Below, piece after piece: positions 43,259 through 56,529 of a DNA stretch of 64,000 nt. Position 1 is the stretch's first letter, and every line of letters starts with the position of its first letter. A program made the position numbers and the translations under genes. The notes below the pieces were generated by a model. The model saw nothing but the letters and a program-made list of their open reading frames with translations, was not told the DNA's origin and made no database searches. Origin of the DNA: Actinomycetota bacterium (GTDB lineage Bacteria > Actinomycetota > Geothermincolia > Geothermincolales > RBG-13-55-18). The stretch spans positions 140,330 through 204,329 of the forward strand of contig JASEFK010000005.1 in assembly GCA_030019255.1 (NCBI GenBank), written 5' to 3'.

Positions 43259-45949
43259 CTAGGCGGCGGTGCGGCGGGAGAGCATGATCCCGCCGCCCAC
43301 CAGCAGGAGGGCGAAGATTATGGAAAGAACTATGGCCGTCACCCAGCTGGCCTTGGAGCCCGCCTTGTAGTTGTAGGTGGGCTTGGTCTGGTAGATGAAG
43401 CGCACCTGGTTGGTGGCGTCCTCGGCCCTTCCCAGCAGGTGGTCGAACTCCGCGCCCCGCTTGGCGATGGCCTCCAGCTCCGCCTCCGTGGTGTTGAGCA
43501 TGACCAGGTTCTTGTACAGGCCGTCCACCATCTGCTGGGTGCCGCTCCCCACCTGGGTGAGTCCCTCCTTGAGGGCGTTGGTGCCGTAGAGGAGGGTGTC
43601 CGGGGCGTCGGAGCTCCCGATGCCCACGATGGCGTCGGCCAGCCCCGCCGAGAGGAGCTGCAGGCCCTCCAAGAGTCCCGGGTTGTTGGGGTCACCGGTG
43701 GACATACCGGCCTTCAGTTGTTGCAGGCCCATCTGCATGGCGGCCATGGCGTAGAGCAGGGTGTCGTCCACGGCGGCGTCCCCGATGCCCGCCTTCATCT
43801 GGTTGAGGCCGTCCTCCACCGCCTTCACCGCGTAGAGCAGGGTATCCGTGGTGGTGGCGCTGCCGATCCCCTGCAGGATCTGCATCAGGCCGCCCTGCAC
43901 GGCCACCGCGGCGTAGAGGAGGGTATCAGTGGTGGTCGTGGTCCCGATCCCGGCCAGGATCCCCTCCAACCCCGCCTGCATGGCGGCCATGGCGTAGAGC
44001 AGGGTGTCCGGTGTGGTGTCGCTGCCGATGCCCGCCTGGACCTGCTGCAGCCCCTGCTTGATGCCCGGGTTGAGGGGATCCGCGTTGTCCAGCCCCAGCA
44101 TTATCTGCTGGATGCCCGGGATGAGCTGGGTGTCCATCATGGTCTTGGAGTACTGCAGGGCGGCGATGACCCCGTCGGGATATGGGTCCGCCAGGCCTTT
44201 GTAGATGGCCTGCAGCCCGGTGGCTATATCATTAAGGCCGGAAGCGTAGCCGTTCATCATGGCCTGTTGTGTTAACCAGATGTTCGGATCGACACCGTCG
44301 GTTATGGGCTTGGCGACATTGAGGGTGTAGTCGTAAAGGGTGGTTAGCCCTCCCCCGGGGCTGAGGGCGTCCCGAACCCCCTGCACTCCTGGAATCAGTT
44401 GATCGTTCAGGTTGGTGGCCATGGTGTTCAGTCCCTCGATGATGGTCCCGGATTGACCCACCCCGCCCAGGCCGGCGCTCATGAGCTGCACCCCGACGAG
44501 GACCTGATTGAGGCCGTCGAGAAGGGTATTGGGGATGCCCACGTCCCCGATGCCCGCCAGCATGTCCAGGACCCCGCCCAGGATGCCGTTCAACCCCGCC
44601 TCCACCTGGATTGCCGCGTAAAGCAGGGTGTCCGGGGTGGTCGCGGAGCCGATGCCCGCCTTGATCTGCTCCAGCCCGGCCTGCATCTCGGCCATGGCGT
44701 AGCGCAGGGTATCTGGGACGGTGGGGTCACCGATTCCCGCGGCCATGTCGCTCAACCCCGCGTTCATTTGGGCCATGGCGTAAAGCAGGGTGTCGGCCAC
44801 GTCGGGCGCGCCGATGCCCTGGGCCATCTGCTGCAGCCCCGCGGTCACCTGGGCGTCGGCGTAGAGCAGGGTATCGGGAGTGGTCTTGGAGCCGATGCCC
44901 GCCGCCGCCTCCTTCACCCCGGGTATCATCTGGGTATCGATGTTGGCCTTGGCGTAGGGCAGTCCCTCCTGGGCGTCGACCATCTTCTTCAGTCCCTCGT
45001 CGATGGCCGTGATACCGAAGAGCAGGGTGTCCTCCTTGGTCGGGTCCCCGACGCCCTCGTTGACCTGCTTGACCCCCTCGTAGAGCTGCTCCAGGCCGGC
45101 CTTGAAGAGGGCCGTGGGGTCCGCCTGGTTGGTCTCCGGGAAGACGAAGGCCACCGCCAGGGTGAGGGGCGGCATCTGGAAGTTCTTCACGTCGGCCTTG
45201 ACCCAGATAGTATGGCTCTCCTCCGTGGCTGGCGGGAAGAGGGGGATGCTCCACCCCACGTTGTAGAAATCGGGCATGGGCACCACCAGTCCCGTGGGAT
45301 CGGCCTCCAGGTTGTAGAAGATGCGGTTGTCGAAGTACCAGTCGTAGGGCTGGATGACCAGGGGGAGGTAGGTCTCCACCTCGGTCTCCTTGAGCTCCCC
45401 GGTATCCGGGTCCTTGTACTCCACGCGGGTTCTCTCCTTGCTGGTATTCTTGAAGGTAACCTCCATCTCGAAGCGCCCGCTCTTACCGGTTATCTCGTCC
45501 AGGTTGGTCACCGGCACCCCGTCGAACCGGTACTTGAAGCGCACCTCCAGGGGGATGCGGGCCCTGGCCTCCTCGACCATGGCCTCGGAGAACTTGGTGG
45601 CGGCGATGTAACTGGCGTTGTCCTCGGACTTCAGGCCCTCCCAGACCAGGTAGTCGCCCTCCACCTTGGGCTTGGTGAATCCCTTCACCCCCTGCCAACC
45701 GGTGTCCTCGTCGAAGGCCTTCTTCTCCCGCACGTCGAAGGTGCCGTCACCGTTCAAGGACAGGATCTTGAAGACCTGTACCTCCTCGATCTCCCCGGAC
45801 CAGTCCAGGGTACAGAAAACGAATTCCGAGTCCACCACGTCCTTTTTCTCCGTGGTCTCGGTGGTGGCCCCGGCGGGTATGGCCGTGGTCAGGGCGACCA
45901 CCATGCCCAGTGAAAGCAGGAGCACCAGGATTTTCTTCACACGCCTCAT
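43259..45949 (-). CDS. large repeat-rich single-pass surface protein
   Basis: An 896-residue protein with a signal peptide (residues 1-28), a non-repetitive domain of about 260 residues rich in beta strands, then some 560 residues of helical repeats with about 11 copies of a DTLLYA-type motif, commonly spaced 30-32 residues (AGIG..TTPDTLLYAM..MQAGL). A Tyr/Lys segment and one membrane helix (WVTAIVLSIIFALLLVGGGI) end in a short RRTAA tail. It should be a cell-surface fibre anchored by its C-terminus. Repeats of this style resemble the helical stalk of YhgE/Pip-type proteins, but the multi-span part of those is missing. It lies 12 bases behind a membrane-protein gene. Confidence 0.7.
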   Translation of the reverse strand: MRRVKKILVLLLSLGMVVALTTAIPAGATTETTEKKDVVDSEFVFCTLDWSGEIEEVQVFKILSLNGDGTFDVREKKAFDEDTGWQGVKGFTKPKVEGDYLVWEGLKSEDNASYIAATKFSEAMVEEARARIPLEVRFKYRFDGVPVTNLDEITGKSGRFEMEVTFKNTSKERTRVEYKDPDTGELKETEVETYLPLVIQPYDWYFDNRIFYNLEADPTGLVVPMPDFYNVGWSIPLFPPATEESHTIWVKADVKNFQMPPLTLAVAFVFPETNQADPTALFKAGLEQLYEGVKQVNEGVGDPTKEDTLLFGITAIDEGLKKMVDAQEGLPYAKANIDTQMIPGVKEAAAGIGSKTTPDTLLYADAQVTAGLQQMAQGIGAPDVADTLLYAMAQMNAGLSDMAAGIGDPTVPDTLRYAMAEMQAGLEQIKAGIGSATTPDTLLYAAIQVEAGLNGILGGVLDMLAGIGDVGIPNTLLDGLNQVLVGVQLMSAGLGGVGQSGTIIEGLNTMATNLNDQLIPGVQGVRDALSPGGGLTTLYDYTLNVAKPITDGVDPNIWLTQQAMMNGYASGLNDIATGLQAIYKGLADPYPDGVIAALQYSKTMMDTQLIPGIQQIMLGLDNADPLNPGIKQGLQQVQAGIGSDTTPDTLLYAMAAMQAGLEGILAGIGTTTTTDTLLYAAVAVQGGLMQILQGIGSATTTDTLLYAVKAVEDGLNQMKAGIGDAAVDDTLLYAMAAMQMGLQQLKAGMSTGDPNNPGLLEGLQLLSAGLADAIVGIGSSDAPDTLLYGTNALKEGLTQVGSGTQQMVDGLYKNLVMLNTTEAELEAIAKRGAEFDHLLGRAEDATNQVRFIYQTKPTYNYKAGSKASWVTAIVLSIIFALLLVGGGIMLSRRTAA

Positions 45950-48626: not shown

Positions 48627-49358
48627 TTGAAGGACATCCTGCCGGATCACATCGGCATCATCATGGACGGCAACGGGCGCTGGGCCAAGATGCGGGGCCT
48701 TCCCCGCATTGAGGGGCATCGGCAGGGCGAGGAATCCATTATGGAAGCGGTGAGGTTCTGCGCCGCTCGGGGCATAAAGGCACTTTCCCTGTTTGCCTTC
48801 TCCACCGAGAACTGGGAGCGCCCCCCGGAGGAGGTGCACTTCCTGGTGAACATGAGCCGGGAGGTCCTGCGCAAGAGGCTGGAGGAGTTCATGGAGCTGG
48901 GGGTGCGCCTGAGGCACCTGGGAAGGAGGGATCGCATACCGGATAAGATACTGGCCTGGTTCGACCTGGCGGCGGCGGCGACCGCCGAAAACCGTGGCTT
49001 GAACCTGAACATCAACTTCAATTACGGAGGCAGGAGGGAGATCCTGGACGCTTCCCTGCGGGCCGCGGAGGCGGTAAAGAGGGGGGATCTAGCTGCTGAG
49101 GGAATTGACGAGGAGGCCCTGAGGGAGTTCTTCTACGCCCCCGACCTTCCGGACATGGACCTGCTCATACGCACGGCGGGAGAGATGCGGATAAGCAACT
49201 TCATGCTCTGGCACCTGTCCAAGGCCGAGATAGTTGTGACTCCGGTACTGTGGCCGGACTTCGGAAGGAAGGACTTGGAAAACGCCCTGGAGGAATACCG
49301 GCGCCGGAAACTTACGGAAGAAGGCGACTTCGATTCCTCGGCCCGGGCTGGGCACTGA
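48627..49358 (+). CDS. uppS: isoprenyl transferase (undecaprenyl diphosphate synthase family)
   Basis: A 243-residue cis-prenyltransferase that extends farnesyl diphosphate with isopentenyl diphosphate to the C50-C55 carrier lipid for cell-wall synthesis. It shows all family motifs: IMDGNGRWA near residue 12, FAFSTENWERP, NFNYGGRREI and LIRTAGEMRISNFMLW. It should dimerise and act at the membrane. The start is TTG with a GGAGG site. The chain length made (short as in actinobacterial C50 enzymes, or C55) cannot be read here. Confidence 0.93.
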   Translation: MKDILPDHIGIIMDGNGRWAKMRGLPRIEGHRQGEESIMEAVRFCAARGIKALSLFAFSTENWERPPEEVHFLVNMSREVLRKRLEEFMELGVRLRHLGRRDRIPDKILAWFDLAAAATAENRGLNLNINFNYGGRREILDASLRAAEAVKRGDLAAEGIDEEALREFFYAPDLPDMDLLIRTAGEMRISNFMLWHLSKAEIVVTPVLWPDFGRKDLENALEEYRRRKLTEEGDFDSSARAGH

Positions 49359-49667
49359 ACCGTTGAACGCCTGGTCGGAAAAGTTTTCCCTTCGCGAGGA
49401 AATTTTCAATTCCTTGGGCCAAGTACCCCGAAATGCGGGTCTGTACGGATATTGCCAATATATTCCATACAATTTCCATGATGCGAATTTCGTTGAATAG
49501 TGGTACTTTTCGAGCATGCACCGCAGCGGTCCCACGGTTGATCCATGGTTTCACAGGGTTCAAGAAACCACCGGCAGCTGGCGAGAAATAGGTTTATCGA
49601 AGGGAAGGAAAATCCATCCCGGAGAAGAAAATTGGGAAGAGATTAATTCGTGGAAAGGAGTGAGGAG
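49359..49667. other. AT-rich leader region before the Lys/Ala microprotein
   Basis: 309 bp, clearly AT-richer than the neighbouring DNA, with no credible gene. TGGTTTC and GAAACCA (49546-49552, 49564-49570) form a 7-bp stem around an 11-base loop. The region probably carries the promoter and a long 5' leader for the microprotein gene; I cannot assign a hexamer pair. Confidence 0.4.
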
Positions 49668-49799
49668 ATGGCTACCAAACCAGCAAAGAAAGCCGCGGCC
49701 AAGAAGACGGCGGCCAAGAAGACCGCGGCCAAGAAGACCGCGGCCAAGAAGACCGCGGCCAAGAAGACCGCGGCCAAGAAGACCGCGGCGAAGAAGTAG
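49668..49799 (+). CDS. Lys/Ala-rich histone H1-like microprotein, 43 residues
   Basis: A 43-residue protein composed after MATKPAKKA of a repeated pentapeptide AAKKT, seven tandem AAKK units ending in KK, with no other domain. Such tails occur as the C-terminal part of HU/HupB in actinobacteria, in histone-H1-like Hc1/Hc2 proteins and in AlgP, where they coat DNA. Here the tail stands alone. The gene has a strong AAAGGAG site close before the ATG. The DNA is a 15-base tandem repeat that varies little, so copy number may change by slippage. A role in nucleoid compaction is inferred from composition only. Confidence 0.75.
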
Positions 49800-49817: not shown

Positions 49818-49843
49818 CGGGGCAGCTCCCCGGCCTGTCTTTT
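49818..49843 (+). terminator. possible terminator after the microprotein gene
   Basis: CGGGG and CCCCG pair around CAGCT, with TCTTTT a few bases later. A short stem, so only tentative. Confidence 0.4.
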
Positions 49844-49891
49844 ACCGGCAATCGCTGAGGGGACCGGGAAGGTAGCGGGGAGCTCGTCTTT

Positions 49892-49921
49892 TTGACCGCT
49901 TTAGCCCACAGTGTCTATACT
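49892..49921 (+). promoter_or_regulatory. promoter of the single-domain response regulator (leaderless)
   Basis: TTGACC, 18 bases, TATACT, then seven bases to ATG 49929. This is the best -35/-10 pair in the window and places the transcription start at the start codon. Confidence 0.6.
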
Positions 49922-49928
49922 CATAGAC

Positions 49929-50297
49929 ATGGGGAGCAAGACGGTTCTGGTGATCGAGGACGACCGCTCCATCGCCAGGCTTATCGAGATAGTGCTCAGC
50001 GGCAAAGGCTTCAACACCCACGTCTGTCTCGATGCCTCCAGCGCGCTGGAGATCTCCACCCGCGTCCGTCCCGACCTGGTAATCCTTGACATCCACATGC
50101 CGCGGCGGAGCGGCTTCAACGTCTTGAAACGCCTGCGGCAGGAGGATGCAACCCACGACACGCCGATAGTGGTCTTCTCCGTTCTCACTCGCAGGAAGAG
50201 CATCGAACAGTTGGCCAGGATGGGGGCCAGCGACTTCGTCTGCAAGAGCGAAGGCGTGGACGCCCTGGTGGACAAGGTCATGGCCATCCTGTCCTGA
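49929..50297 (+). CDS. single-domain response regulator (CheY-like)
   Basis: A 122-residue stand-alone receiver domain: IEDDRS acidic pocket, phospho-acceptor D54 in VILDIHMP, Ser/Thr switch at VFSVL and Lys in FVCKSEG. With no output domain it should act through protein-protein contacts or as a phosphate shuttle. No kinase is adjacent; the histidine kinases at 52.3-54.9 kb also lack a regulator next to them, so a partnership is possible but untested. An upstream in-frame GTG lies inside the promoter. Confidence 0.9.
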   Translation: MGSKTVLVIEDDRSIARLIEIVLSGKGFNTHVCLDASSALEISTRVRPDLVILDIHMPRRSGFNVLKRLRQEDATHDTPIVVFSVLTRRKSIEQLARMGASDFVCKSEGVDALVDKVMAILS

Positions 50298-50322
50298 AGA
50301 TGGTCGGAAGAAGGTGAGGGAA

Positions 50323-50922
50323 ATGGAGGTTCTCGAGGCCATAAGAAAGAGAAGAAGTATACGCAGGTTCGAGGACCGGCCGGTACCCGAGGAGCACGTC
50401 AGGGAGATACTGGAAGCGGCCAGGTTGGCCCCCTCGGCGAGTAACCTCCAGACCTGGAAGTTCAAGGTGGTTACCGATCCCGGGGTCCGCAAGTTACTGC
50501 GCGAGGCGGCCTTCGATCAGAAGTTCGTGGAGCGGGCCCCGGTGGTCATCGTAGCCTGCGCCGATCTCTCCGCTTTCGGCGAACGTTCCAAGAGGACGCT
50601 GGAGCTTCTGCGTTCGGGAGCGGTGAGGCCGAGCCTGGAGATGCTTCTGCGCTTCCTGCGCCGGGACAAGGATGCGGATGTGGAGGAGAGGAACCTCATC
50701 AGCGCCTGCATCAACGTGAGCATTGCCGTCCAGAACATGGTGCTGGCGGCGACCTCCCTCGGGCTGGGCACGTGCTGGGTGCGGGCCTTCGTTCCCGAGA
50801 GGGTGGCGGAGATACTTTCCCTTCCCCCCGAATGCCCGCCCCTCATCCTCCTGCCCCTGGGCTACCCGCGCGAGGACCCCGAGCCGCGCAGCCGCAAGTC
50901 CCTGGAGGAAATTCTCCTCTGA
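50323..50922 (+). CDS. nitroreductase family FMN oxidoreductase
   Basis: A 199-residue flavoprotein with the FMN phosphate motif RKRRSIRRFEDRPV, APSASNLQTWKF and AVQNMVLAATSLGLGTCWV. Family members reduce nitro groups, quinones, flavins or dehalogenate; the physiological substrate here is unknown. ATG 50323 is chosen over GTG 50314, since GGTGAGGG then serves as ribosome site. It follows the response regulator by 25 bases and is probably cotranscribed. Confidence 0.9.
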   Translation: MEVLEAIRKRRSIRRFEDRPVPEEHVREILEAARLAPSASNLQTWKFKVVTDPGVRKLLREAAFDQKFVERAPVVIVACADLSAFGERSKRTLELLRSGAVRPSLEMLLRFLRRDKDADVEERNLISACINVSIAVQNMVLAATSLGLGTCWVRAFVPERVAEILSLPPECPPLILLPLGYPREDPEPRSRKSLEEILL

Positions 50923-56184: not shown

Positions 56185-56529
56185 TCCCGGACCCCTTTCA
56201 CGTCCTTCTCCTTTCCGAAAAAAGGAAATAACATTCCAATCTTTCCAATTTTATCATATCGGCATGCGCCCCCGCCGCCTTGACCCGTCGGGTAATGCGA
56301 TAGGAATCGCGTTCTCAACCTCGAATCCCGCCGAGCTTTTTCTATTTTATACCAGCAGCGCAGCACTTAAACACCATGCCTTGTTTCCGCGTGCTTCTCG
56401 CAACTTCGCCCGGCGTCGCCGCCCGGACCCGCCACTTCCGAGCACCGTGCGGTGGTCGCAAGGGATTTAATGTCCCGACATATCCGTGGTCTTGACCGAG
56501 TTTGCGGTCGGGCTCGAGGGTGACGCGGT
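56185..56529. other. intergenic region without recognised elements
   Basis: 345 bp between the exported-protein and helicase genes. A short stem (GACCG/CGGTC, 56494-56498 and 56505-56509) may help end the helicase transcript. I see no gene. Confidence 0.4.

Follow-up and report, generated by a model that had tools for sequence, protein, structure and literature searches.

A stand-alone lysine/alanine/threonine repeat gene in Geothermincolales, candidate for an H1-like peptide sharing a putative 5' element with tail-less HU

The DNA analysed here (64,000 nucleotides, called the window) belongs to a draft assembly of 2.93 Mb in 43 contigs, which is 98.8% complete. It carries, immediately downstream of a uppS paralogue, a very small gene referred to below as KAT. 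The locus is organized as follows, all features being on the plus strand.

48627-49358, plus strand: uppS paralogue (cis-prenyltransferase), conserved 5' neighbour of KAT.
49359-49600, plus strand: upstream part of the KAT leader, AT-richer than the genome, unconserved in sequence and length.
49605-49629, plus strand: putative two-block 5' element AAGGAAAA-N14-GAA, in common with the HU leader (the profile matches 49601-49638, from 67 nt before the ATG).
49654-49660, plus strand: ribosome site AAAGGAG, 7 nt before the ATG, inside GAAAGGAGTGARRAG-ATG, near-invariant in the family.
49668-49799, plus strand: KAT gene, encoding a 43-aa stand-alone Lys/Ala/Thr repeat protein (13 residues followed by (TAAKK)6), recognized from the ORF and from orthologues that occupy this locus in the family and order.
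49693-49796, plus strand: 15-bp tandem array CCGCGGCCAAGAAGA, 6.9 copies, 96% match (Tandem Repeats Finder).
49820-49895, plus strand: possible intrinsic terminator 3' of KAT, a GC-rich stem and T run whose fold is no better than those of shuffles.
49911-50297, plus strand: single-domain response regulator, the conserved 3' neighbour of KAT in the family.
50314-50922, plus strand: nitroreductase-family protein, conserved as the next gene in most of the family.

The original prediction, a 43-residue Lys/Ala-repeat gene with a strong ribosome site, is borne out to the nucleotide. The ORF consists of 43 codons starting with ATG and closed by TAG, and it is a real stand-alone gene, not a chance ORF; it is probably strongly translated. 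The product begins with MATKPAKK, is made of repeat throughout without any other domain, and contains 17 K, 17 A, 7 T, 1 P and 1 M. Common gene callers accept ORFs from about 90 nt. The claim that such a gene lies below the usual gene-calling limits needs correction, as 43 codons are not under the limit of every gene finder and most orthologues reach 58-107 aa. The array is single in the assembly: a pattern search gave six matches, all at the KAT locus, and the reversed control pattern gave none in the same assembly. Such arrays break assemblies, a contig ending inside the repeat in both G014 and G016. Elsewhere in the window, degenerate 81-bp repeats are found at 43782-44879 within a large membrane-anchored protein (ORF 43259-45949, minus strand).

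From the uppS stop codon to the ATG, the KAT leader measures 309 bp, with 47% GC vs. 64% for the window. Its description as an unusual 309-bp AT-rich leader is thus right as to length and AT-richness, but the length is not conserved (131-600 bp across the family) and most of the sequence is not conserved either, save the last ~67 nt. A motif in the upstream part of the leader was set aside, being weak (14.3 bits vs. a shuffle maximum of 12.4) and not constant in position. In a consensus scan, no sigma-70-type promoter was found in the KAT leader, the only match lying at 49892-49921, before the response regulator. An Rfam scan of the locus gave no credible RNA, and folds of the leader and of the downstream region were no better than those of shuffles.

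For the survey of orthologues, 15 genomes of the order were used, namely those with this uppS paralogue assembled. A K/A/T/P-only ORF of 43-107 aa lies directly 3' of uppS, on the same strand, in 13 of the 15, and synteny with uppS is conserved. The ORF is located 3.6 kb downstream of uppS in G017. In G005 (genus g3), the slot between uppS and the response regulator is occupied by a 105-aa K/A-rich helix-turn-helix protein (L177:8856-9170). Within the family, the order uppS - KAT - response regulator (- nitroreductase) is kept. In the genus, the products of complete KAT ORFs measure 43 (window), 43, 73 and 98 aa, and those of the remaining genera of the family 58-107 aa. Species differ in array length, as had been anticipated; these lengths are drawn from one genome per species and from draft assemblies in which repeat length may be mis-assembled.

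Conservation extends to the start region, since GAAAGGAGTGARRAG-ATG-GCT-ACC-AAA-CC is almost invariant in the family. Lack of conservation of the ORF or its ribosome site in relatives had been named as the result that would speak against the gene; both turned out to be conserved. A comparison of codons 1-8 in 11 orthologues showed almost only synonymous changes at the third position, besides a single change at a second position. Among about 990 codons from 14 orthologues, nearly all encode K, A, T or P irrespective of which synonymous codon is used; R appears a few times, V twice and an acidic residue once, and there are neither stops nor frameshifts. As judged from these codons, the variation shows that the K/A/T/P-only repeat is under protein-level selection. 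A spurious or non-functional ORF, born from slippage in GC-rich DNA, might be suspected from the low complexity of the protein and from the near identity of the units of the window copy at the DNA level. It is contradicted by the family-wide position and start site, by the synonymous-only variation in intact frames and by the conserved 5' element. Because of the synonymous-only variation and the conserved start region, in particular, a spurious or non-coding repeat is extremely improbable.

The conserved synteny is also in keeping with another explanation, namely that KAT serves its neighbours, either by binding acidic undecaprenyl phosphates at the membrane or as a leader peptide controlling the response regulator. 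Also in favour of this explanation are a possible hairpin and a T run in the interval from KAT to the response regulator. However, KAT is far from uppS in G017, and no response-regulator homologue was found in the locus stretches examined from G016 and G017. Moreover, an array whose length varies more than twofold would be odd for a leader peptide, and both a start region and a 5' element are conserved for KAT itself. That KAT serves its neighbours is judged very unlikely.

The genome contains a single HU gene (G000:C15:38482-38748; L144), located on another contig than KAT (C15 vs. C5). Its product of about 93 aa ends with ...ALKKAVSGKK, without any lysine-rich extension; a tail-less HU had been predicted, and the only HU of the genome is indeed of this kind. 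In the family and in the class, there is likewise one HU gene per genome, and it is tail-less. A general rule according to which a stand-alone KAT accompanies a tail-less HU was rejected, as it fails phylum-wide: many HU genes there lack a long KAT tail.

A motif search showed that RGAAGGAAAA or a near variant ends 52-59 nt before the ATG in 13 of 13 KAT leaders (16.7 bits vs. at most 11.4 in shuffles). By inspection, AAAGGGAAAA and GAAT were recognized in the HU leaders, as far from the start codon as in KAT leaders. HU and KAT leaders can be aligned without gaps on AAGGRAAA-N14-GAA at about -65, one HU sequence having an insertion just after. Because a pattern built from both groups will find both, one-sided tests were made. 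A 38-nt profile derived from HU leaders only was run on both strands of the window (127,926 positions). The KAT element at 49601 ranked first with a score of 12.3, followed by a match of 12.0 at 56218 with no gene start at a matching distance; some individual leaders are equalled by many of their shuffles (84 of 300 for G008). When the profile was applied to family loci (798 start sites preceded by a ribosome site), HU genes took the top ranks and KAT genes nearly all of the next ones, with the match at -64 to -67 in every KAT gene. In the own-genome test, the profile contained only HU sites of other genera and was applied to 1,376 start sites from 364 kb: KAT came third, behind HU and clpB; under an AT-rich background it was fourth, with a modest positive score of 1.7 bits. 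clpB was considered as a third gene with the element and rejected; its match is probably due to chance, since relatives have none.

In whole genomes, the composite pattern gave three sites in G000 (HU, KAT and an unrelated one), and in G006 and G010 it matched HU and KAT and nothing else. Matches in G000:C8 and G004:C2 were discarded, having no plausible start at the right distance. The element is thus nearly unique in the genome to these two genes. The case for a promoter or leader element shared by HU and KAT is good, though not conclusive, and the similarity of the short purine-rich leaders, on which co-regulation rests, suggests that the two genes respond together. The element may correspond to an alternative sigma-factor promoter or act at the RNA level; it may also belong to the promoters or leaders of highly expressed genes in general instead of being dedicated to the nucleoid. 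Genes with a cold-shock domain (PF00313), sought as leader controls, were not found in any of 15 genomes of family f1, the same search being positive in 9 of 14 control genomes. As far as can be told from these leaders, the element in common with HU would be the strongest link of KAT to the nucleoid.

Free lysine-repeat nucleoid proteins are already known, in Chlamydia and Burkholderiales. By composition, KAT is H1-like, as it is a K/A/P/T-rich repeat polycation without folded domain, and its orthologues are alike. Chlamydia Hc2 (hctB) and Bordetella BpH1 resemble it in being stand-alone, with lysine-rich pentameric repeats, evenly spaced charges and a size variation driven by the repeats (PMC2848022). 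However, they are larger (165-237 aa for Hc2 and 182-206 aa for BpH1 vs. 43-107 aa for KAT), whereas KAT is all repeat, occurs in Actinomycetota next to uppS and appears to have its leader in common with a tail-less HU. The window protein scores 27 bits (E 5.6e-6) with Pfam PF07382 (HC2), under the gathering cut-off of 40 bits, and among the orthologues G003 reaches 56.3 bits, above this cut-off, and G008 19.7 bits, all these matches being driven by composition. With the NCBIfam models NF038052 (Hc2) and NF038053 (Burkholderiales H1-like), the window protein obtains 20.9 and 19.3 bits vs. cut-offs of 135 and 80, and the scanned orthologues at most 44.9 bits. KAT is not filed under these families because the window protein stays below the curated models.

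Within Actinomycetota, HupB of mycobacteria and HupS of Streptomyces have PAKK/KAAK-type repeats, but these form a tail fused to an HU domain, whereas KAT and HU are two genes on different contigs; with no HU domain and tail in one polypeptide, KAT is not a tailed HU of the HupB/HupS type. AlgP of Pseudomonas is a disordered H1-like protein with KPAA repeats in variable number (PMC9239181). It has, however, a 124-aa predicted helical N-terminal domain, and KAT, in which no such domain precedes the repeats, is not of the AlgP type. HbhA of M. tuberculosis has AKKA repeats (PMC10665949) but is larger than KAT, with further domains. What differs in the present case is the small size, the lack of any other domain, an actinobacterial HU whose tail would be on a separate gene, and the leader that the two seem to have in common.

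The reading that we favour, with moderate confidence, is that KAT encodes a free H1-like DNA-condensing peptide, co-expressed with HU and acting with it on the nucleoid. It is preferred because of the anatomy of the gene, that is, its conservation, the tail-less HU and the common 5' element; expression and DNA binding are what we infer from it. The product would be a free, intrinsically disordered polycation resembling the C-terminal tail of histone H1 or HupB and would be made together with HU. Its KK pairs, which are evenly spaced, would mediate sequence-independent DNA binding, and the peptide would neutralise phosphate charge and bridge or condense DNA around HU. Thereby it would provide in trans the function of the tail that is fused to HU in HupB of mycobacteria and HupS of Streptomyces. 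The charge and reach of the peptide would be set by how many 15-bp units the gene contains, and this number would change by repeat gain and loss. In other systems, mycobacterial HupB requires its tail to associate stably with the nucleoid (PMC5676037), peptides of KPAA repeats have been shown to bind DNA in vitro (PMC9239181), and in HbhA the AKKA-type C-terminus is both required for DNA binding and enough by itself (PMC10665949). The K/A-rich helix-turn-helix protein in the KAT slot of genus g3 is counted in favour of a nucleoid role; the shortness of a product of 43 residues with 17 lysines is counted against condensation.

Besides DNA, polycations have affinity for RNA, polyphosphate and acidic lipids. 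The main partner of KAT might be RNA, ribosomes or polyphosphate instead of DNA, with the peptide serving, for instance, to repress translation or to organise granules. The composition of KAT does not discriminate, Hc2 prefers RNA, which it binds with higher affinity, and represses translation (PMC2848022), and AlgP organises polyphosphate granules (PMC9239181). Against this, no granule or ribosome gene adjoins KAT, and the 5' element in common with HU ties it to a nucleoid gene. Such a partner is considered unlikely. Following the preferred reading of an H1-like peptide alongside HU, Geothermincolales may possess a two-piece bacterial linker histone, in which the HU core and the H1-like tail are separate, co-regulated genes whose products act in trans, with a tail length free to evolve by repeat gain and loss. 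This wider proposal is tentative, and we give it slightly less than an even chance.

Other Actinomycetota have stand-alone K/A/T/P(R)-only ORFs with ribosome sites (G020 L235, G027 L120, G147 L253, G285 L256 and G251 L251), which lie in different neighbourhoods and, in those inspected by eye, showed no HU-like 5' element. Two of them, L235:1123-1365 (80 aa) and L120:1414-1581 (55 aa), come from other loci in family f4 of the same class. In family f14 (L253, L255, L256, L260), KAT microproteins are apparently encoded directly 3' of a whiB-like gene, the upstream frame ending with YGVWGGMSERERRRLKRMAS or similar. A KAT tail is also carried by a DUF35/OB-fold-like (Zn-ribbon) protein in several genomes of the class (L189, L232, L234, L245), and KAT stretches occur in phasin-like, IF2-like and L22-like ORFs of relatives.

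Lysine-rich tails are thought to govern the hold of actinobacterial HU on the chromosome, and they are normally fused to HU, so that it takes engineering to separate tail from core. Here, the tail and the HU core appear to be naturally separated, with a common 5' control element kept. KAT-type microproteins are, besides, conserved genes that repeat-broken assemblies can hide. If the proposed function is true, these organisms would offer a natural system for the role of a free H1-like tail, for the tuning of tail length by repeat number and for the behaviour of a tail-less HU core.
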